Source: a virus
DNA length: 54,585 bases
Virus record (IMG/VR): IMGVR_UViG_3300028384_000913
Coordinates: 1-54,585 of that record
Strand: one strand, 5' to 3'
Shown piece by piece: positions 1,337 to 21,468 of the stretch. Position 1 is the first letter of the stretch. Each line of letters starts with the position of its first letter. A model generated the notes under the pieces. That model ran no database searches and was not told the origin of the DNA. It saw nothing but the letters and a program-made list of their open reading frames with translations. The translations under genes were made by a program, and so were the position numbers.

Positions 1337-1673
1337 AATATTCTTTTGCGGAGTGCCAGGGTCTAGATGGAGTGGTATAGCACAAGAAATAAAGGCTAAA
1401 GAAGGAATGAACATTTCTGATAGAGCTTCTCATAGAGTTTACAAGCACGGAAAGTTCGGAGGTCATATAGACGCATATTTTGGTACAGGTATGGAATTCA
1501 GCTGTAAACTGTCCGAAGAAAATTTAAGGTATGAGAGTGACTACTGGATGCGTGCTAAGATTGAAGAACAAAATAATCTTATACTAGACTTTGCTCAAAG
1601 AAATAATCTTAGCTGGAAACAACACCATAAACACAGAAATGTATTTATAACAACATGCTTGAATTACTCTTAG
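1302..1673 (+). CDS. Short P-loop-like protein, possibly sulfotransferase-related
   Basis: The N-terminus (about residues 13-24, F-F-C-G-V-P-G-S-R-W-S-G) looks like the first strand and phosphate-binding loop of a P-loop fold, in the G-x-P-G-S-x-x-S form seen in sulfotransferase-like proteins. A second segment (Y-F-G-T-G-M-E-F) is distinctive but unassigned. At 123 residues it is about half the length of a typical sulfotransferase, and it ends inside the start of the transporter permease gene. It may therefore be a truncated relic or a reduced family of its own. Function not established; no catalytic residue can be named with confidence. Confidence 0.45.
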   Translation: MADLNGTTWPDKIFFCGVPGSRWSGIAQEIKAKEGMNISDRASHRVYKHGKFGGHIDAYFGTGMEFSCKLSEENLRYESDYWMRAKIEEQNNLILDFAQRNNLSWKQHHKHRNVFITTCLNYS

Positions 1674-2980
1674 GAACCTTATACGGTTTATTGGTTGGAA
1701 TTATACCTTCAGCAGGGGCTACGACAGGCCTTGTGGCTCTTTTTGGTTTTATGCATCTATTCCCTGATGAATACTCAGCTATAATTTTTATCATGGCTAC
1801 AGTAGCCGCTTCAACAACAGCAGACACTTTTGCCTCTGTACTTTTAGGTATACCAGGAGCAAACAGTGCTGCAGCAACTATACAAGACGGTCACCCCCTA
1901 GCTAGAAAAGGTAAGTCTGAATTAGCACTATCTGCAGCGATTACGTCCTCTACATTCAACGGATTATTATGGGGTTTTATTGTATTTGTATTTTTAGAAA
2001 ATCTAGAATTTGTATATACATATATTGGTAGTATTCAGCTATGGTTTATTACGCTGTTTGCTTTCTTTTGTGTTGTTCTTGTATTAGGAAAAAAATGGTA
2101 TCTAGGAGTAATAGGAATTGCTCTTGGTATTTTATTTGCTTTAGTAGGCTCTGATCCCATAACAAATGCTCCAAGATTAACTTTTGGTTGGGGATATTTA
2201 GAAAGTGGTATACAACTTATGCCTTTGATTGCAGGGGTTTTTGCAGTACCCCAAATTATAGATGGATTAGCGGGATGGTCAGCACCGGTAAAGCATGACA
2301 GAAAATCATATAAGTTGCTCGGAATATACGCTGTTTTTAAAAATTTAGGATTAAGTCTACGTGGAGGAATAATCGGCGCAACTATAGGATTCCTACCTGG
2401 ATTAGGCGGGGCAGTGTCTGACTGGATATCTTATGGCCATACGGTAGCGACTACAAAAAATCCTAAAATACCTTTTGGTAGAGGAAATATAAGAGGTGTT
2501 ATCGGTCCTGAAGGATCTAATAATGCTCAAAAAGCTACAAGTATGATAACTACAGTATTGTTTGGAATACCAGGCGCTCCCTTTGCTGCAGTCATCATGG
2601 GTTTGTTGATGTATCTAAACATCGAATTAGGTGATCCCTCTCTTTTTTACGATGAAATGATATTCGACTCTATGTTACTTGGTTTTATAGGCGGAACAGT
2701 CATAGTAGCTGTGATAATGTTTGCTTTACTAAAACCAATATGTTATATTACCAGAATTCCAGTAAAAATATTTTTTCCATTTTTATTTATTTTACTGCTT
2801 TGGAGCTGCGCTCAATACACAGGAGGATGGGAAGATTACTTGGTATTTTTTATCTTCTCTGTATTAGGATATATAATACACAAGCTTAACATATCAAAAC
2901 CAGCTTTATTGTTGTCTTTTATTCTTTTCGAGAGATTTGAACTACTCTCAATTCAATTATTAACAAGGTATATATTATGA
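1655..2980 (+). CDS. tctA: TctA-like tripartite tricarboxylate transporter permease
   Basis: A 441-residue, strongly hydrophobic protein with about 10-12 predicted membrane segments. It shows the two signature repeats of the TctA family: G-I-I-P-S-A-G-A near residue 18, and G-F-L-P-G-L-G-G-A-V-S near residue 250. It also has the family segments L-L-G-I-P-G-A near residue 66, D-G-H-P-L-A-R-K-G-K near 80, and N-N-A-Q-K-A...L-F-G-I-P-G-A near 290-310. In the family TctA is the large inner-membrane subunit that imports carboxylates using an ion gradient, working with a small TctB and periplasmic TctC. It is shorter at the N-terminus than cellular TctA (about 500). No ribosome site is visible; it overlaps the preceding gene, so coupled translation is likely. 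Its stop overlaps the start of the TctC-like gene (ATGA). Confidence 0.88.
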   Translation: MLELLLGTLYGLLVGIIPSAGATTGLVALFGFMHLFPDEYSAIIFIMATVAASTTADTFASVLLGIPGANSAAATIQDGHPLARKGKSELALSAAITSSTFNGLLWGFIVFVFLENLEFVYTYIGSIQLWFITLFAFFCVVLVLGKKWYLGVIGIALGILFALVGSDPITNAPRLTFGWGYLESGIQLMPLIAGVFAVPQIIDGLAGWSAPVKHDRKSYKLLGIYAVFKNLGLSLRGGIIGATIGFLPGLGGAVSDWISYGHTVATTKNPKIPFGRGNIRGVIGPEGSNNAQKATSMITTVLFGIPGAPFAAVIMGLLMYLNIELGDPSLFYDEMIFDSMLLGFIGGTVIVAVIMFALLKPICYITRIPVKIFFPFLFILLLWSCAQYTGGWEDYLVFFIFSVLGYIIHKLNISKPALLLSFILFERFELLSIQLLTRYIL

Positions 2981-3993
2981 AAAAACTACTTTTAACGTTA
3001 GCTACTTGTACTGCTCTTACAACCCCTGCTTTTGCAGAATATAAAATGATCATTCCACAAAAGCCAGGAGGAGGCACTTCGCAATGGGCTACAATTATTG
3101 CAAAATACCTAGAACCACATCTAGGAGAAAAAATTAAATTAGTGCATATTCCAGGTGCTAGAGACATTCCTGGATTTAATAAATTCCATAATGAATTACG
3201 TTTTGATGATAAAACTATTATGGTGTCGCACGGCGGTAACGGTGTATCGTATCTTACTGAGAACGTAGACTATAATTACAAAGACTATCAGCCAATTGGC
3301 GGTATGAATCTTACTATTCATATTGGAGAAAAAGAATTAGGAGATCACATTTACTTTGCAGGAGGTTCAGGCAATATCCCAGATGTTATGGCATTAACTC
3401 TCTATATGTGTGGAAATCTTGGAAGCTTTGAAGAATACGAAAAATGCTACAAAGACAATATCACTTTTGTAAAAGGAATGTCTGGAAGTGAAAGAAGGTT
3501 AGCATTCAATAATGGTGAGCTGAATATTACGAGAGAGAACCCTGCCGCCTACAAAAAACATGCTAAAGCAGCTAATCTGTTATTCACACATGGAGTTTTT
3601 GACTTAGATGAAGGCAAAGTTGTTGATGATAGAAATAAACCTAATATGTCATTTGATAAAGTCTTCACTGCAAAATGGGGGGAAGCACCTCAAGGTGATT
3701 TTTACGATGCATACATGCTTGTTAAAAACTACAGAGACATGCTACAAAAAGCATTATGGATGAATAAAGATAATCCTAACTCGGTACCTGTGACTTTGGC
3801 ACTCCTTGATATGCTAGAAGATAATGAAGCTATGGCAGCTATCGAGAAAAAAGTAGGAGACTATGACTGGTTTATTGCAGACGAACTAATTGAAGCTGTG
3901 AACTATCTTGAGAACAATAAAAATGAAGAGACCCAAGATTATCTCATTAAATGGCAAAGACAAGTCTTAGGGTATAATGCAGTCAAAAAATAG
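2977..3993 (+). CDS. tctC: TctC-like periplasmic solute-binding protein
   Basis: The first 20 residues form a Sec signal peptide: K-K at the N-terminus, a hydrophobic core and an A-F-A cleavage site before E-Y-K. Mature residues then give M-I-I-P-Q-K-P-G-G-G-T-S, the P-G-G-G-T motif of the Bug/TctC family, and later I-P-G-A-R. In that family the protein captures a carboxylate in the periplasm and hands it to TctA/TctB. At 338 residues it is near family length (about 320). The middle and C-terminal parts diverge from what I remember of cellular TctC, with an unusually acidic, alpha-helical tail, so the ligand cannot be predicted. Translationally coupled to the permease through ATGA; its end overlaps the next gene. 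Confidence 0.82.
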   Translation: MKKLLLTLATCTALTTPAFAEYKMIIPQKPGGGTSQWATIIAKYLEPHLGEKIKLVHIPGARDIPGFNKFHNELRFDDKTIMVSHGGNGVSYLTENVDYNYKDYQPIGGMNLTIHIGEKELGDHIYFAGGSGNIPDVMALTLYMCGNLGSFEEYEKCYKDNITFVKGMSGSERRLAFNNGELNITRENPAAYKKHAKAANLLFTHGVFDLDEGKVVDDRNKPNMSFDKVFTAKWGEAPQGDFYDAYMLVKNYRDMLQKALWMNKDNPNSVPVTLALLDMLEDNEAMAAIEKKVGDYDWFIADELIEAVNYLENNKNEETQDYLIKWQRQVLGYNAVKK

Positions 3994-4621
3994 TAAATTC
4001 TATTTTGATAAACTAATTAAGAAATACTCGAAACAAATTACCTTCATATACTATAGACCAGAATATGGAGGTAATTTATTAAATAGAATCATATTATCAG
4101 ACGAAGCATATTTCTGGGGAGAACAGCATAACTCTGCTGAGTCTACTCTAAAGCCTCTTGAATACCCTAAATCAACTGAAGGGTTTAATGTTCAAAATAA
4201 TCATTTTTTATCCTTCAAAGAACAACACCTGTCATGTGTTCATTCAAGTGACATTCCTTATCCTATACCTCTAAGAGAGCATGATTACGAAATACTTTTA
4301 AGGTACAAAAAAGCTCTACAAAATAATTTGAAAATATGTATCAAGTCTCAAAGAATAGATCAAGAAAACAACACTTGCAAAGGAATTAGATTGTATGGTC
4401 AACCATTATACAGATTTAATAGCGGTGACGCTGTTGAAAAAAGTTTTCATAAAAATGTTCTTAACGTTGAAGCTAAAAAACTATTCTCCGAAGATTATGA
4501 AGAATTTTTAGAAGAATACTTAAAGGTGGTTAGGTTTTTAGACTTGGCTCCAAACGTAAACCAAGTAAGGGCTTTCATATTACTATGGATAGAGAAACAA
4601 AAAAGATTCAAGCTGTCATAA
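3977..4621 (+). CDS. Hypothetical protein, paralogue of next gene
   Basis: Unrecognised protein of 214 residues. Its N-terminus (I-T-F-I-Y-Y-R-P-E-Y-G-G-N-L-L-N-R-I-I) has the position and spacing of the beta-strand plus nucleotide-binding loop of sulfotransferases (P-R-S-G-T-x-L-L), but key residues differ. The C-terminal third (L-F-S-E-D-Y-E-E-F...Y-L-K-V-V-R-F-L-D-L-A-P-N-V-N-Q-V-R-A-F-I-L-L) closely matches the same region of the following protein, so the pair arose by tandem duplication. No membrane segment or signal. It starts inside the end of the binding-protein gene. A PAPS-dependent sulfotransferase role is only a possibility. Confidence 0.5.
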   Translation: MQSKNSKFYFDKLIKKYSKQITFIYYRPEYGGNLLNRIILSDEAYFWGEQHNSAESTLKPLEYPKSTEGFNVQNNHFLSFKEQHLSCVHSSDIPYPIPLREHDYEILLRYKKALQNNLKICIKSQRIDQENNTCKGIRLYGQPLYRFNSGDAVEKSFHKNVLNVEAKKLFSEDYEEFLEEYLKVVRFLDLAPNVNQVRAFILLWIEKQKRFKLS

Positions 4622-5253
4622 ATAAGTTTCCTAACAGTTATTGCTTATTAGAAGCGCCAAAAGGCATGTTTGGTAGCCTGGTATATAGAATTATTGCCGC
4701 TTCTTCAGATAAGATAATTTGGAACTCATCCTTTTGCGGAAGCATCGAAGACCTAGCTCCTCTAGAGTGGCCGAGATATCAAGAAGGCTTTCTAATTTAT
4801 AATATAGGTAAAGCTACTTACAAATTCTTTAAAGAAAGTCATTTAGCTGCAGCACACATAAGCCTTCCTTTATTAGAGAATATGTCTTACCAAGAACTAA
4901 AAAATAGCTCTAATTTCAAAAAATCTCTGCTTATAAAAAGCCATATGACTGATCTTCATGAAAATTACGACTGCAAGGTTTACAGACTAACTGGGTCTTT
5001 GAAAAATATTGTACCGTATGATAAAAATACTCAACTAAGATCAGAACAACATTTAAACTTTATGCCTGCTAAAACAAATAAAGTGTATAATATAGATGTT
5101 GAAAAGCTGATGAGCGAAGACTACGATGTTTTTGAAAAAGAGTATTTAAGTTTATGTGATACTTTAGATACGCTTCCTAATATTAATAACGTCAGACAAT
5201 TCATACTTTTGATGAGGGATAAACTAAAAAGATATCATTTAAGTCTTTCTTAA
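4585..5253 (+). CDS. Hypothetical protein, paralogue of preceding gene
   Basis: 222 residues, diverged duplicate of the upstream protein. Shared blocks include P-L-E-W-P-R-Y-Q-E-G-F (P-L-E-Y-P-K-S-T-E-G-F upstream), F-K-E-S-H-L-A-A-A-H (F-K-E-Q-H-L-S-C-V-H), L-M-S-E-D-Y-D-V-F-E-K-E-Y-L and N-I-N-N-V-R-Q-F-I-L-L. The putative loop near the N-terminus reads A-P-K-G-M-F-G-S-L-V-Y-R-I-I, again at the place where a sulfotransferase loop would sit. It overlaps the upstream gene by 37 bases and is the last gene before the ligase. Enzymatic role unknown; the shared H-L and S-E-D-Y residues are the best candidates for functional sites. Confidence 0.5.
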   Translation: MDRETKKIQAVINKFPNSYCLLEAPKGMFGSLVYRIIAASSDKIIWNSSFCGSIEDLAPLEWPRYQEGFLIYNIGKATYKFFKESHLAAAHISLPLLENMSYQELKNSSNFKKSLLIKSHMTDLHENYDCKVYRLTGSLKNIVPYDKNTQLRSEQHLNFMPAKTNKVYNIDVEKLMSEDYDVFEKEYLSLCDTLDTLPNINNVRQFILLMRDKLKRYHLSLS

Positions 5254-7871: not shown

Positions 7872-7900
7872 GGGTGGTAGGTAACTACCACCCTTTTTTT
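7872..7900 (+). terminator. Intrinsic terminator with GTAA tetraloop
   Basis: Perfect 9-bp stem GGGTGGTAG / CTACCACCC closed by the stable tetraloop GTAA, followed at once by seven T. It ends the single-gene unit of the multi-HTH protein. The T-run finishes only 3 bases before the ATG of the amidinotransferase gene, so that gene can be reached only by read-through or has an unseen signal. Confidence 0.95.
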
Positions 7901-7903
7901 ATT

Positions 7904-8923
7904 ATGTTCAAAGCATTTACAGAATTTCAAAAATTAAAAAAAGTTATGGTAGGCAGAGGTTTCTCAACCTCGATTGTAGAAAGTGGTTATCTTAGAGATA
8001 AACTAACTCCCTCAACTAAAAGTTTGCTAACAAATCTTTTAGAAGAGACTGAAGAAGATTATCAAAACTTAATTAACATATGCGAAGAATTCGGGGCACA
8101 AGTTGTGCGTCCAGAATACTCTTCAAATAATATGGATATTGTACCCTATCTAATGTCTCCTAGAGATAATCTAATAGCGTTACATGATTCGTTATTAGTG
8201 TGTAATGAGGCGATGCAAACTAGTATAGACCTGTGTGGCCCTTTTGTTAGTCAAACAGCTAATATTAAAAGAGGGAAACATACTTTCGGTTTGATGCCTC
8301 CTTCTATAGTAAGATTAGGTAAAGACATAATTTTAGATAAACAATCAGAACAAATATCAAATGCTGATTTAAGTGCAAAGTGGGTAAAAGATTGGTTAGA
8401 ACCTTTAGGGTATAATGTAATATATACTAAAACGCATGATTTCAAATTTAAAGGAAATATAAGTCACGGTGATGGGTGTTTCTCAATCCAAAAACCAGGT
8501 GTTATCTTAACGTGTAGAGAGGCTAAGCACTATACTGAGAATATATTTAAGAATTGGGATGTCTTTCAAGTTCCAAGTGCATGGGAAAAAATGAGTAAAT
8601 GGAACAAATTTAAAGAAGATACACGGTCTTATGCCTTTACTGATGTTAAATATATTGATCCCGTATGGAATAAATTAATAACAGACTGGTTATCTGATTG
8701 GGTTGGATATTCTCAAGAAACTATTTTTGACGTAAATGTATTATCTCTAGATGAAAATCATGTAGTAGTATCACATTACGATAAAGAAGTTTTTGCATAT
8801 TTTAAAAAGCACAAAATAGAACCTATAATAAGTCCTTGGAGACATAGATTTTTTTGGGATGGAGGAATACATTGTATAACACTAGACTTAGAAAGAGAAG
8901 GTGAATGTGAGCAATATCTATAA
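7904..8923 (+). CDS. Glycine-amidinotransferase-like enzyme, copy 1
   Basis: 339 residues, full-length for the amidinotransferase (AGAT) family, which moves an amidino group from arginine to an amine. Motifs seen: P-R-D-N (Asp88), R-L-G-K-D-I (136-141), S-H-G-D-G (His188, Asp190) and G-G-I-H-C-I-T (Cys324, candidate nucleophile), then R-E-G-x-C-E-Q-Y-L at the end. As I recall human AGAT, the Asp that pairs with the catalytic His sits just before the R-x-G-x-D-I block; here that place is Ser (P-P-S-I-V-R), so chemistry may differ. I chose ATG 7904 by alignment to copy 2; the GTG at 7874 would lie inside the terminator. No good ribosome site is visible. Substrate unknown. Confidence 0.82.
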   Translation: MFKAFTEFQKLKKVMVGRGFSTSIVESGYLRDKLTPSTKSLLTNLLEETEEDYQNLINICEEFGAQVVRPEYSSNNMDIVPYLMSPRDNLIALHDSLLVCNEAMQTSIDLCGPFVSQTANIKRGKHTFGLMPPSIVRLGKDIILDKQSEQISNADLSAKWVKDWLEPLGYNVIYTKTHDFKFKGNISHGDGCFSIQKPGVILTCREAKHYTENIFKNWDVFQVPSAWEKMSKWNKFKEDTRSYAFTDVKYIDPVWNKLITDWLSDWVGYSQETIFDVNVLSLDENHVVVSHYDKEVFAYFKKHKIEPIISPWRHRFFWDGGIHCITLDLEREGECEQYL

Positions 8924-9992
8924 TTCATATGCTGAGTTTTTACCTCTTAAAACAGTGATGGTTGGTAGGTGTCATTCTTCTGAAAGTTTAGATCATACTT
9001 CTCTAGAGATGTCAGAAAAAACTAAAAACTTATTCAAGCAACTTTTACAAGAAACAGAGGAAGACTTTCAGCAGTTTATTTCTATCTGCAAGCAATTTGG
9101 AGCAGAAGTCAAAAGACCTAAGTATTCATCTAAATCTTTTAAAACCTCTGACTCTAGAGAAGCCCTAGGCTTAGGGGGTATGCGAGAAAGTCTTTTTCAA
9201 GAATACCCCTATCTACTGATTCCAAGAAATAATTTAATAACCTTAGATGACACGGTAGTATCAATAAATTCTGATGATGTTATACATAATGATTATATTA
9301 GTTCTATCACAAACATTAAAAATATAAGAAATGAATACACCACACATGACAATCTAAAGCCTTCTTCAATTATTAGGTTGGGTAAAGATATAATTGTAGA
9401 CAAACAAGAATTTATGAACAGTAACACTGAAAAAGGGTTTAATTATTTAAAAGAATGGTTAGAGCCTATTGGTTATAATATAATATACACAGCGTATCAT
9501 AACTTTAAATTTGCTGATCATCAAAGTCATGGCGATAGTACTTTGGCAATATGTAAACCAGGAGCATTGATAAGCCATGTTGATGCTAAAAATTATACGA
9601 CAGAGATTTTTAAATCCTGGGACGGTCTGACAATATCAGAAGACTCAAGTAAAAATAAGCTTAATAAATGGTACAGTCTAAAAACAAAATTAGCTAATTT
9701 CAACTTCTTTAGTAAAAAATATAATGATGAAGCTTTTCACCATACTATAGAAAACTGGTTCAAGGAATGGGTAGGATACGCTAATGAAACAGTATTTGAT
9801 ATTAATATTTTCTCTCTTGATGAGAGTACCGTTGTCGTATCTAACTATAACAAAGAAGTATTTGATTTCTTCAAAAAACACAAAATAGAGCCAATTATAT
9901 GTAACTTTAGACATAGGTATTTCTGGGATGCAGGATGGCATTGCTTAACTTCAGATTTAGAAAGAGAAGGAAATTGTGAACAATATCTCTAA
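8907..9992 (+). CDS. Glycine-amidinotransferase-like protein, copy 2
   Basis: Tandem paralogue of the upstream gene (361 residues from GTG 8907). It keeps V-M-V-G-R, R-L-G-K-D-I, S-H-G-D, the terminal G-W-H-C-L-T (candidate nucleophile Cys) and the C-terminal R-E-G-N-C-E-Q-Y-L, but P-R-D has become P-R-N and an insert of about 20 residues sits between residues 75 and 100. It may have a new specificity, or serve as a non-catalytic partner of copy 1. The start is GTG 8907, 6 bases after the ribosome site AGAGAAG, which is itself encoded by the conserved end of copy 1; GTG 8901 is an alternative. Overlaps the next gene in the same way. Confidence 0.78.
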   Translation: MSNIYNSYAEFLPLKTVMVGRCHSSESLDHTSLEMSEKTKNLFKQLLQETEEDFQQFISICKQFGAEVKRPKYSSKSFKTSDSREALGLGGMRESLFQEYPYLLIPRNNLITLDDTVVSINSDDVIHNDYISSITNIKNIRNEYTTHDNLKPSSIIRLGKDIIVDKQEFMNSNTEKGFNYLKEWLEPIGYNIIYTAYHNFKFADHQSHGDSTLAICKPGALISHVDAKNYTTEIFKSWDGLTISEDSSKNKLNKWYSLKTKLANFNFFSKKYNDEAFHHTIENWFKEWVGYANETVFDINIFSLDESTVVVSNYNKEVFDFFKKHKIEPIICNFRHRYFWDAGWHCLTSDLEREGNCEQYL

Positions 9993-16465: not shown

Positions 16466-16953
16466 ATAAGTTTGAATTCATAAAATATCCTTTTTTCGGA
16501 ATTAAACAAAAACCTTATCAGATTAAATATGACTTAACAAAAATGTATATCAAAAGAATGTATACAGGACATTTTGAAACAGTTGATGATAAATCTTTAG
16601 CAGGTGACTATTTTGCAAGATTAGCTACTCTTGAGACTAGGTTAAAATTTGATTATACTTGTAAGAACCTTCAAGAACTAATTTACAGTGGTTGTAGATG
16701 GGGAATGGATTGTGAAGCTAATCCACATGATTTATCAAAACCCATGACTGCCAGATCGTTCTGTAATAAGGTTGTAAAAGTAAATGATAATCTAGTTTGG
16801 ATAAAGAATGTGTCGTACCCTTTTACTATTCCAACAAGTGAGAAGCTAGAATTGAATGAAGAGATATTTGGGACTGTAGTGAAAGTCGGAGATGAGTGGT
16901 ATCTCAAAGAATTTTCTTTTGAGCCTAATAACAATACTTATATGAGGATATAA
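16462..16953 (+). CDS. Hypothetical protein, 163 aa
   Basis: I do not recognise this protein. It starts basic (F-E-F-I-K-Y-P-F-F-G-I-K-Q-K-P-Y), has a helical middle with A-R-L-A-T-L-E-T-R-L, three Cys (K-N-L...G-C-R-W-G-M-D-C-E and F-C-N-K) and a beta-strand C-terminus (V-V-K-V-G-D-E-W-Y-L-K). No signal or membrane segment. It is coupled on both sides by start-stop overlaps, between the basic peptide and the SpeD-like gene, so it is probably expressed with the replication genes. Confidence 0.55.
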   Translation: MNKFEFIKYPFFGIKQKPYQIKYDLTKMYIKRMYTGHFETVDDKSLAGDYFARLATLETRLKFDYTCKNLQELIYSGCRWGMDCEANPHDLSKPMTARSFCNKVVKVNDNLVWIKNVSYPFTIPTSEKLELNEEIFGTVVKVGDEWYLKEFSFEPNNNTYMRI

Positions 16954-17327
16954 TGCTAGTACATAAGCATCTGCTTCTTCAAGCTAGGTTTTTAGCAAGA
17001 GGCAGAGTTGAAAGATATTATGAGACTTGGATGAAGGTACTTGTAGAGAAAATTGGTATGGAATTGCTAACAGAACCAAAAGCAGTTAGATCTAATATGC
17101 CAGGAAACAGAGGTATTACCTGTTCTGCTATGATTACTACTAGTCACATAGTCTTACACACATGGGAAGATACACATCCAGGGCTATTACAGTTAGATGT
17201 TTATTCTTGTAAAGACTTTGAAATAAGTGATGTTATAGAAAAATTAAAAGATTTTTGGGTAGATGAACATACTATTCAGTTTAAATTTTTAGACAGAGAA
17301 AATGGGTTTACTGAGCTAAATGGGTAA
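16953..17327 (+). CDS. speD: S-adenosylmethionine decarboxylase-like protein
   Basis: 124 residues, the length of a small bacterial-type AdoMet decarboxylase before self-cleavage. The core T-T-S-H-I-V-L-H-T-W-E-D matches the family block S-H-(I/L)-x-x-H-T-(W/Y)-P-E, in which the Ser becomes the pyruvoyl cofactor; the later L-Q-L-D-V-Y-S-C-K-D-F holds the conserved Cys. The residue before Ser-His is Thr, where cellular enzymes usually have Glu, so self-processing may be altered. In cells the product, decarboxylated AdoMet, feeds spermidine synthesis; polyamines could help package phage DNA. No spermidine synthase is seen in this window. Confidence 0.78.
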   Translation: MLVHKHLLLQARFLARGRVERYYETWMKVLVEKIGMELLTEPKAVRSNMPGNRGITCSAMITTSHIVLHTWEDTHPGLLQLDVYSCKDFEISDVIEKLKDFWVDEHTIQFKFLDRENGFTELNG

Positions 17328-19755: not shown

Positions 19756-20567
19756 AAAAGTCTCTAGCAGATATGGCTTCTGCTGAAAAGCCGAAGAAGA
19801 AAACCTTTGGCGCTTTCAAAGAAGTAGATGGGGGTCAAGCACAGATTGACCTTAACATGCTTAGAGAACATAATGTTTTCTTTGCTACTCCTTGTTATGG
19901 TGGACAAGTTACTGATCAATTCTTTTTGTCTATGTTCAGAATGTCTCAGACATTCATGCAACACGGCATCAACTTCAGAATTACTACATTACGTAACGAA
20001 TCTTTAGTAACAAGAGCTAGAAACATTCTTACAGCAATGTTCCTAGAGTCTGATTGTACACACTTGATGTTCATTGATGCTGATATCGAGTTTGACTCAG
20101 AAGCTATTCTTAGAGCTTTAGCGTATGATAAACCAATCATGGCTGCGGCATATCCTAAGAAAGCTTTACCTGTACAGTACGCTATTAACTTCAAGTTTAT
20201 AGATCAAGCTACAAAACAGGTGAGAGTTGAAAACGGTGCTGTAGAAGTTCTAGACGCCTCTACAGGGTTTTTCTTAATTAAACGTGAAGTTATTGAGAAA
20301 ATGACAGCAGCACATCCTGAGCTACACTATCGTAATGATTCAAATATAGATCCAAAGTTTAACAAGTATTGTTATGCTTTGTTTGATACTATTTTAGATC
20401 CCGATGATAATCGCTATCTATCAGAAGACTATACTTTCTGTCGTAGATGGCAAAAGCTCGGAGGAGAGATTTGGTTAGACCCTAACACAAAACTCAATCA
20501 TGTTGGTGCATACACCTTTGAAGGTGATGTATCTAAGATTATTGGCCGTGAAAATCCAGAGTCTTAA
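19752..20567 (+). CDS. Glycosyltransferase, GT-A fold
   Basis: 271 residues. An N-terminal tail (1-32, K-S-L-A-D-M-A-S-A-E-K-P-K-K-K) precedes a GT-A fold: N-V-F-F-A-T-P-C-Y-G-G, then the R-N-E-S-L-V-T-R-A-R-N block, the metal-binding F-I-D-A-D-I-E-F (D-x-D type, about residues 112-116), an acceptor region S-T-G-F-F-L-I-K-R, and L-S-E-D-Y-T-F-C-R-R (E-D, likely general base). It should transfer a sugar from a nucleotide-sugar; the acceptor might be phage DNA, a virion protein or host polysaccharide. Coupled to the SSB gene by ATGA. Confidence 0.8.
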   Translation: MKKSLADMASAEKPKKKTFGAFKEVDGGQAQIDLNMLREHNVFFATPCYGGQVTDQFFLSMFRMSQTFMQHGINFRITTLRNESLVTRARNILTAMFLESDCTHLMFIDADIEFDSEAILRALAYDKPIMAAAYPKKALPVQYAINFKFIDQATKQVRVENGAVEVLDASTGFFLIKREVIEKMTAAHPELHYRNDSNIDPKFNKYCYALFDTILDPDDNRYLSEDYTFCRRWQKLGGEIWLDPNTKLNHVGAYTFEGDVSKIIGRENPES

Positions 20568-21468
20568 ATACGACAACCCTTCTTTTCAAGTTGAGGTTGA
20601 GTGGGATATAACACAAAGATGTAACTATTCTTGTTCATACTGTGCAAGTTATGATAACACTCAACCTTTTAACTTCAAAGAATTAGACGAGTACTTAGAT
20701 AGCTTTGAGTACTTGTCTAACTTCTTTGGTAACAAAACTATAAAGATTAATTTTTTAGGAGGCGAGCCTACACTCTTCAAGCAGTGGGTCAAATTAGTAA
20801 ACTGGTTATCTGAGCATAATTTTGTGATAAAACTAACAACAAATTTATCAGTACCAGTTATACAGTATATCAAAGTATTAAATGTAGGATTAGGGAACTT
20901 CATCAGTGCTAGTTATCACACTGAGTTTGCAGACTTAGATAAGTTTTATGAAAATGCAAATTACTTGCATCATGCAGGATTCTTGCATAGCATAACACTT
21001 CTACCTGACCCTAAGAACTGGGACTACTCGATGAAGTGTTATGAAAAACTTAGTAAGATAACGACAGTTAGTCTTAATAAGATAAAGAATGAATTTACAG
21101 ATTCTGTAGGCATCTCTGGAGATTTCATTGAATACTCGGACGAACAACTTAAAATGTTCAATCAAGTTCCAAGACGAGTTGATGAGAATATGAGTATTAT
21201 AGTTGATGGAGAAACTAAGCACCCGTCACTATATGAAATAAGAGAGAAATATAGTAATTTTAAAGGTATGAAGTGTGCAATAGGCAGAGATAGAATACAC
21301 ATCAAACCTAATGGTGACATCTATCCTAGTGCTTGTTTACTAAACTATCCTAGAGCTAAGATGGGAAATATCTTTAAGAAGAATATAATTAAACCTAAGA
21401 ATGCAGTGATCTGCCCATTCAATGAGTGTTTATGTGGACCTGATATTCGTATAGAAAAGTGGGCGTAG
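20548..21468 (+). CDS. Radical SAM enzyme 1
   Basis: Radical SAM core with C-N-Y-S-C-S-Y-C (Cys25, Cys29, Cys32 from the start chosen) for the [4Fe-4S]-SAM cluster, then the G-G-E-P block (N-F-L-G-G-E-P-T) that binds SAM. The C-terminal part has more Cys (K-C-A-I-G-R, S-A-C-L-L, I-C-P-F-N-E-C-L-C-G), arranged like a SPASM or twitch auxiliary cluster domain, typical of enzymes that modify peptides. Start uncertain: GTG 20548 overlaps the glycosyltransferase end by 20 bases; ATG 20527 with GAAGG nearby is the alternative. No substrate peptide is seen next to it, except the small Cys-containing frame at 21471. Confidence 0.85.
   Translation: MKIQSLKYDNPSFQVEVEWDITQRCNYSCSYCASYDNTQPFNFKELDEYLDSFEYLSNFFGNKTIKINFLGGEPTLFKQWVKLVNWLSEHNFVIKLTTNLSVPVIQYIKVLNVGLGNFISASYHTEFADLDKFYENANYLHHAGFLHSITLLPDPKNWDYSMKCYEKLSKITTVSLNKIKNEFTDSVGISGDFIEYSDEQLKMFNQVPRRVDENMSIIVDGETKHPSLYEIREKYSNFKGMKCAIGRDRIHIKPNGDIYPSACLLNYPRAKMGNIFKKNIIKPKNAVICPFNECLCGPDIRIEKWA

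Follow-up and report, generated by a model that had tools for sequence, protein, structure and literature searches.

Can a TctA permease and a TctC binding protein carried by a phage form a working transporter without TctB? Whether TctA functions without TctB is an open question in the field (PMC5812351, PMC5898192). According to a 2018 review the function of TctB is unknown and TctAB fusions are rare (PMC5812351), and stand-alone TctA proteins of archaea have been suggested to work alone (PMC5898192). The locus considered here lies in a virus record from IMG/VR that is 54,585 bases long and is hereafter called the window. The two genes and their upstream neighbours are:

812–1336, + strand: methyltransferase-like neighbour in the same cassette (weak PF13489 match)
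1302–1673, + strand: neighbour of the 'GVPGSRWSG' family, overlapping the tctA start (by comparison with locus L001)
1655–2980, + strand: tctA, permease of 441 amino acids (PF01970, E 7.5e-85; motif residues; AlphaFold2 model)
2977–2980, + strand: ATGA, in which the tctA stop overlaps the tctC start (from the sequence)
2977–3036, + strand: predicted TctC signal peptide with cleavage after AFA (by eye; AxA family-wide)
2977–3993, + strand: tctC, solute-binding protein of 338 amino acids with predicted TctC/Bug fold, divergent subfamily (model, structure matches, profile)

The window encodes an NAD-dependent DNA ligase, a D5-like regulator, a DnaB-like helicase, a primase and a T5-type DNA polymerase that is about 40% identical to polymerases of T5-like phages, together with ribonucleotide reductase, tail fibre and minor tail proteins. 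These genes bear out the phage setting described in the first-pass annotation, which had also allowed for a mis-assembled host contig or an unrelated membrane family; the contig is viral, and PF01970 is the best family for the permease. Terminase_6N found no match in the window, and the contig is therefore probably partial. No tRNA was found in the window, where promoter-like sites are no more frequent than in shuffled sequences.

The cassette genes around the pair recur at other loci. The methyltransferase family occurs in 58 loci with the pair, with a clear Methyltransf_11 match in L014, and the 'GVPGSRWSG' family in 41. The window member of the latter is about 65 amino acids shorter than its orthologues (188 amino acids in L001, 179 in L004) through an in-frame loss from the middle, and it may be decaying. 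Directly after tctC lie related tandem proteins of 214 and 222 amino acids (3977–4621 and 4585–5253), the first of which begins inside the tctC end; neither has an above-cut-off Pfam match, and a relative also follows tctC in L004. Further downstream, a second set of tandem related proteins (7874–8923 and 8901–9992; 349 and 363 amino acids) belongs to phrog_25854, of unknown function, and appears amidinotransferase-like by eye. An S-adenosylmethionine decarboxylase (16953–17327, PF02675) and a radical SAM protein (20500–21468, PF04055) are possible further auxiliary metabolic genes.

The permease lies exactly where the first-pass annotation had placed it. The match to PF01970 scores 285.5 bits, against a curated cut-off of 28.9, and spans model positions 4–423 of 423. 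Some 10 membrane segments are predicted, without the last C-terminal helix found in most relatives, and the AlphaFold2 model has a pLDDT of 85.5. The TctA family motif is a duplicated G-x3-G-x3-G-x2-P-G-x-G (PMC5812351). Its second copy is intact in all 40 phage-type sequences compared, while in the first copy the glycine after the proline is substituted in 30 of the 40, including the window, with the remaining residues retained. A sequence profile search returned no solved TctA relatives from the PDB, and a fold search gave no match of confidence (best E 0.014, TM-score 0.14), which has no bearing on whether the fold is new.

The ATGA junction reported from the first reading is present, and the gene that it opens is harder to place by sequence. 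The window TctC has no match in Pfam, NCBIfam or PHROG; PF03401 did not match it at E ≤ 1 and matched one of 46 relatives at E 0.022. The family search proposed earlier for both proteins has thus succeeded for TctA with PF01970 and found nothing for TctC with PF03401. Among PDB entries, a profile of 46 TctC sequences matched BugD (E 6e-4), with weaker matches to MatC and Bug27. AlphaFold2 models the protein with confidence (pLDDT 92, pTM 0.88), and the 11 best structural matches to this model are all of the TctC/Bug type, with Z-scores of 18.0–22.5 compared with 13.2 for the next family. Given the confident model, these best matches and the BugD profile match, the protein is a divergent TctC, in keeping with the TctC-like binding protein with a signal peptide that was originally proposed. 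Its N-terminus resembles a Sec-type signal with an AxA site at A18-F19-A20, judged by eye and from the alignment, and A20 is retained in all 46 relatives. R173, R174 and R186 are invariant in the phage TctC proteins. Routine annotation probably overlooks the binding protein, since this TctC type lacks a Pfam or NCBIfam match and the members tested lack one in PHROG.

No TctB had been seen at the locus at first reading, and none came to light here. PF07331 has no match in the window record (E ≤ 0.001), where every ORF apart from TctA has at most two predicted membrane segments. A PF07331 search of 74 other, distinct viral records (50 plus 25, one common to both) was equally negative at E ≤ 1. 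Because PF07331 scores the fused TctB parts of bacterial proteins weakly (E 0.002–0.004), a TctB profile was purpose-built on seven fused TctBs together with two that are separate proteins. This profile found no match in 7711 viral ORFs at E ≤ 10; its source sequences all score, which checks that the search ran and not its reach, and a very divergent TctB could escape it. All of the viral records are classed as linear; they may be incomplete, in which case a TctB gene could be located beyond their ends. The phage TctA proteins measure 440–500 amino acids, compared with 651–686 for the bacterial fusion permeases, which carry a C-terminal TctB part. The search for a hidden TctB also covered small ORFs with several predicted helices next to the pair and the ORFs lying between the two genes of split pairs, and gave nothing consistent; in the few split pairs the gap is occupied by a methyltransferase, by an oxygenase-like protein of HxD type or by unrelated small ORFs.

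The pair extends well beyond the window. Profile-based patterns, confirmed by tblastn, identified 266 IMG/VR stretches for this type of TctC and 483 for the TctA, which are counts of stretches and not of phages. The viral classification is that of IMG/VR itself, and some DNA on the short contigs may not be viral. From at most 80 loci per search, with duplicates removed, at least 99 distinct pairs were collected, forming 54 clusters at 90% identity. The spacing between tctA and tctC is at most 60 nt in 90 of the 99 collected, and the genes overlap in 76. Three loci (L001, L004 and L006) encode TctA proteins 82–86% identical to that of the window, with a similar upstream gene order. The presence of such pairs in other viral contigs, with an NG86 dN/dS of about 0.05, excludes chance or a frozen assembly error as the source of the pair.

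One carrier contig, of 213 kb, encodes a T4-type gp23 and terminase, and another reaches 328 kb. As T4-type capsid and terminase genes occur on some carriers and T5-type replication genes in the window, the pair crosses phage backbones. In PHROGs v4 neither the window pair nor two further pairs tested had a match, and the cultured phage records searched contained no close relative. TctA matches in a phage collection, at no more than about 30% identity, came from unannotated short records or a bacterial record and were judged to be ordinary bacterial-type TctA. A protein family that shows an HxD...H...R pattern and is 2OG-oxygenase-like by eye lies close to the pair at 23 loci, among them L018 (5142–5885), and at a few of these it separates tctA from tctC. 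Pfam gave the family no oxygenase match, and it is not found near the window pair; a substrate guess based on it was set aside as a lead.

Estimates of dN/dS by NG86 range from 0.02 to 0.15 in 26 pairs and are rough, several dS values being near saturation; both tctA and tctC are under strong purifying selection. The divergence of TctA tracks that of TctC with r 0.90 (40 gene pairs; Mantel 0/2000), compared with 0.33 for the methyltransferase neighbour and TctA (32 loci), which supports the view that tctA-tctC travels as a unit. To this extent the earlier proposal that the genes were inserted as a unit holds; the idea of a single inserted pair gives way to a widespread viral clade. In a TctA tree built by a quick method, 40 phage-type sequences, including two from MAGs, fall on one side of a branch with support 100. 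Seven TctAB fusions from bacteria group with them (support 100), apart from ordinary TctAs; the stem is long, at 2.0 changes per site, and the program warned of long branches meeting. The tree is rooted for drawing only and gives no order for loss of TctB by phages versus a split before the fusion. The binding proteins of the fusion systems are the best cellular matches to phage TctC, two carriers aside. The lineage would appear to be viral, forming one clade whose nearest bacterial counterparts are TctC plus TctAB-fusion systems.

At least two cellular contigs encode the pair, and other cellular carriers may exist. The first (L090) is a contig of 7.9 kb in which the neighbours of the pair are phage cassette genes. 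In the second (L089/L111) the pair is located between bacterial-looking genes of a 4.4 Mb marine MAG ('Marine bacterium B5-7'), for which phage-to-cell transfer, a source lineage (transfer either way) or a binning error are possible explanations. The segment at 4332–11057 of L111 comprises the phage-type tctA-tctC, a cassette-type 'GAPGSKWSG' gene and a 2OG-Fe(II) oxygenase, and the bacterial-looking neighbours include an iron-sulfur/CCG-domain protein. Searches of two orders (147 and 109 genomes) and two classes (385 and 369, 754 in total), alpha- and gammaproteobacterial and selected as those with a known cellular match, returned no strong match beyond the two known contigs; the order and class samples may overlap.

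The phage pair resembles the tripartite TctABC transporter in its TctA permease family, its binding protein of TctC fold, predicted to be exported, and its adjacent genes, and differs from it in the lack of TctB, the order tctA-tctC, a TctC beyond the range of PF03401 and its viral setting. Closer to it are bacterial systems composed of TctC and a TctAB fusion (L107–L110, L112–L114), which provide the nearest TctA group and the nearest cellular TctC and have an RGE-type motif in domain 2 in common with the phage pair. Their gene order is tctC-tctAB, and some adjoin PrpF and aconitase, unlike the phage pair. Such fusions were found here in seven bacterial genomes, compared with at least one case in the 2018 review (PMC5812351); they seem to be commoner than reported. 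The archaeal stand-alone TctA proteins (PMC5898192) likewise have no TctB, but they mostly lack TctC as well and are non-viral.

Among viruses, tctA was recorded on SUP05 viral contigs in 2014 as a 'protein domain hit only' with role unknown (PMC4164917); the TctA domain on viral contigs is shared with the present locus, whereas neither TctC nor TctB is described there. Cyanophage PstS (PMC2984593) is also a phage periplasmic binding protein, thought to boost host nutrient uptake, but it is of the ABC type, binds phosphate, and is encoded alone and used with the host permease. BFVD lists phage proteins named 'PBP2_Bug_TTT' or 'Bordetella uptake protein', among them proteins of uncultured Caudovirales (e.g. 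A0A6J5T247), which share the TctC/Bug fold with the window TctC at 12–15% identity; virus-borne TctC as such is therefore not new. We know of no linked TctA for these Caudovirales proteins. The literature searched, with subscription papers and preprints outside it, contained no further description of a TctB-free phage tctA-tctC pair, and the linked, TctB-free and widespread viral clade appears to be new.

From these comparisons we infer that the pair serves carboxylate import. We consider it probable that it is a phage-encoded two-component, binding-protein-dependent secondary carboxylate importer, most likely working without TctB. The overlap of the two genes is observed, and it could couple the translation of TctA and TctC. 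TctC, with its conserved AxA signal, would be exported by the host Sec system and, judging from its fold and family, would capture a di- or tricarboxylate in the periplasm for delivery to TctA, which would reside in the inner membrane of the host. There TctA would drive inward transport with an ion gradient, by analogy to the TTT family, in which this is itself poorly tested. The imported carboxylate would feed carbon and energy to the infected cell, and the pair would function throughout without TctB. The broader proposition, that this virus-specific TTT branch is a true two-component, TctB-free transporter and a common polycarboxylate uptake tool of uncultured phages, seems to us evenly poised.

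We are confident that the substrate would be some carboxylate; its narrowing to a tricarboxylate is tentative. Solved relatives of TctC are recorded, by their structure titles, with malate, oxoadipate or terephthalate. In the Pelagibacterales locus L107 the fusion-type operon adjoins PrpF and aconitase (by Pfam; L108 is alike by sequence), which points to aconitate-like acids as the putative substrates of those bacterial systems. The specificity of the phage pair may differ from theirs because the similarity of the proteins is low.

The use of a host TctB, an option left standing by the first-pass annotation, would make the phage pair two thirds of a tripartite transporter, with phage-chosen specificity and docking onto host-made TctB. 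Each of the two pair-bearing MAGs has TctB genes elsewhere, some carrier hosts could supply it, and the analogous small subunit is essential in TRAP transporters (PMC5812351). However, any TctA is present in just 29 of 97 sampled Pelagibacterales genomes, so that host TctB would be available only in places, should such cells be the hosts. Moreover, TctB sequences differ widely from one system to another (PMC5812351), which makes a general fit less plausible, and the absence of TctB is uniform across many phage lineages. Docking looks less likely than TctB-free function and is, in our judgement, unlikely. A replacement small membrane subunit encoded by the phage, near the pair or elsewhere and either unrelated to TctB or too divergent to be recognised, is more doubtful still: a small membrane protein does occur near the pair in a few loci (a DUF6552 family in 12, another family in 13), but both families are missing from most loci, the window has no such gene, and the profile drawn from divergent fused TctBs found no match.

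Phages use membrane and periplasmic proteins for purposes of this kind, and the pair could be envelope proteins with a non-import role such as superinfection block or acid export. We hold this to be very improbable in view of the conserved transporter motifs and ligand-binding fold and the strong purifying selection in both genes. That the pair represents a mis-assembled host contig or decaying passenger genes is barely credible. Many of the IMG/VR carriers are indeed short, and one MAG (L089/L111) has the pair among bacterial genes, but the local gene order is shared by several independent contigs, some carriers have capsid and terminase genes, the pair is nearly absent from sampled cellular genomes, and strong purifying selection speaks against decay.

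The TctB-free two-component importer thus remains the reading that we favour. A large viral clade in which selection maintains TctA and TctC although TctB is lacking makes the question of whether TctA can function in this way directly testable with a small natural pair. Such a pair would also add organic-acid uptake, through a transporter that is almost complete, to the ways in which phages may affect the carbon metabolism of their hosts.
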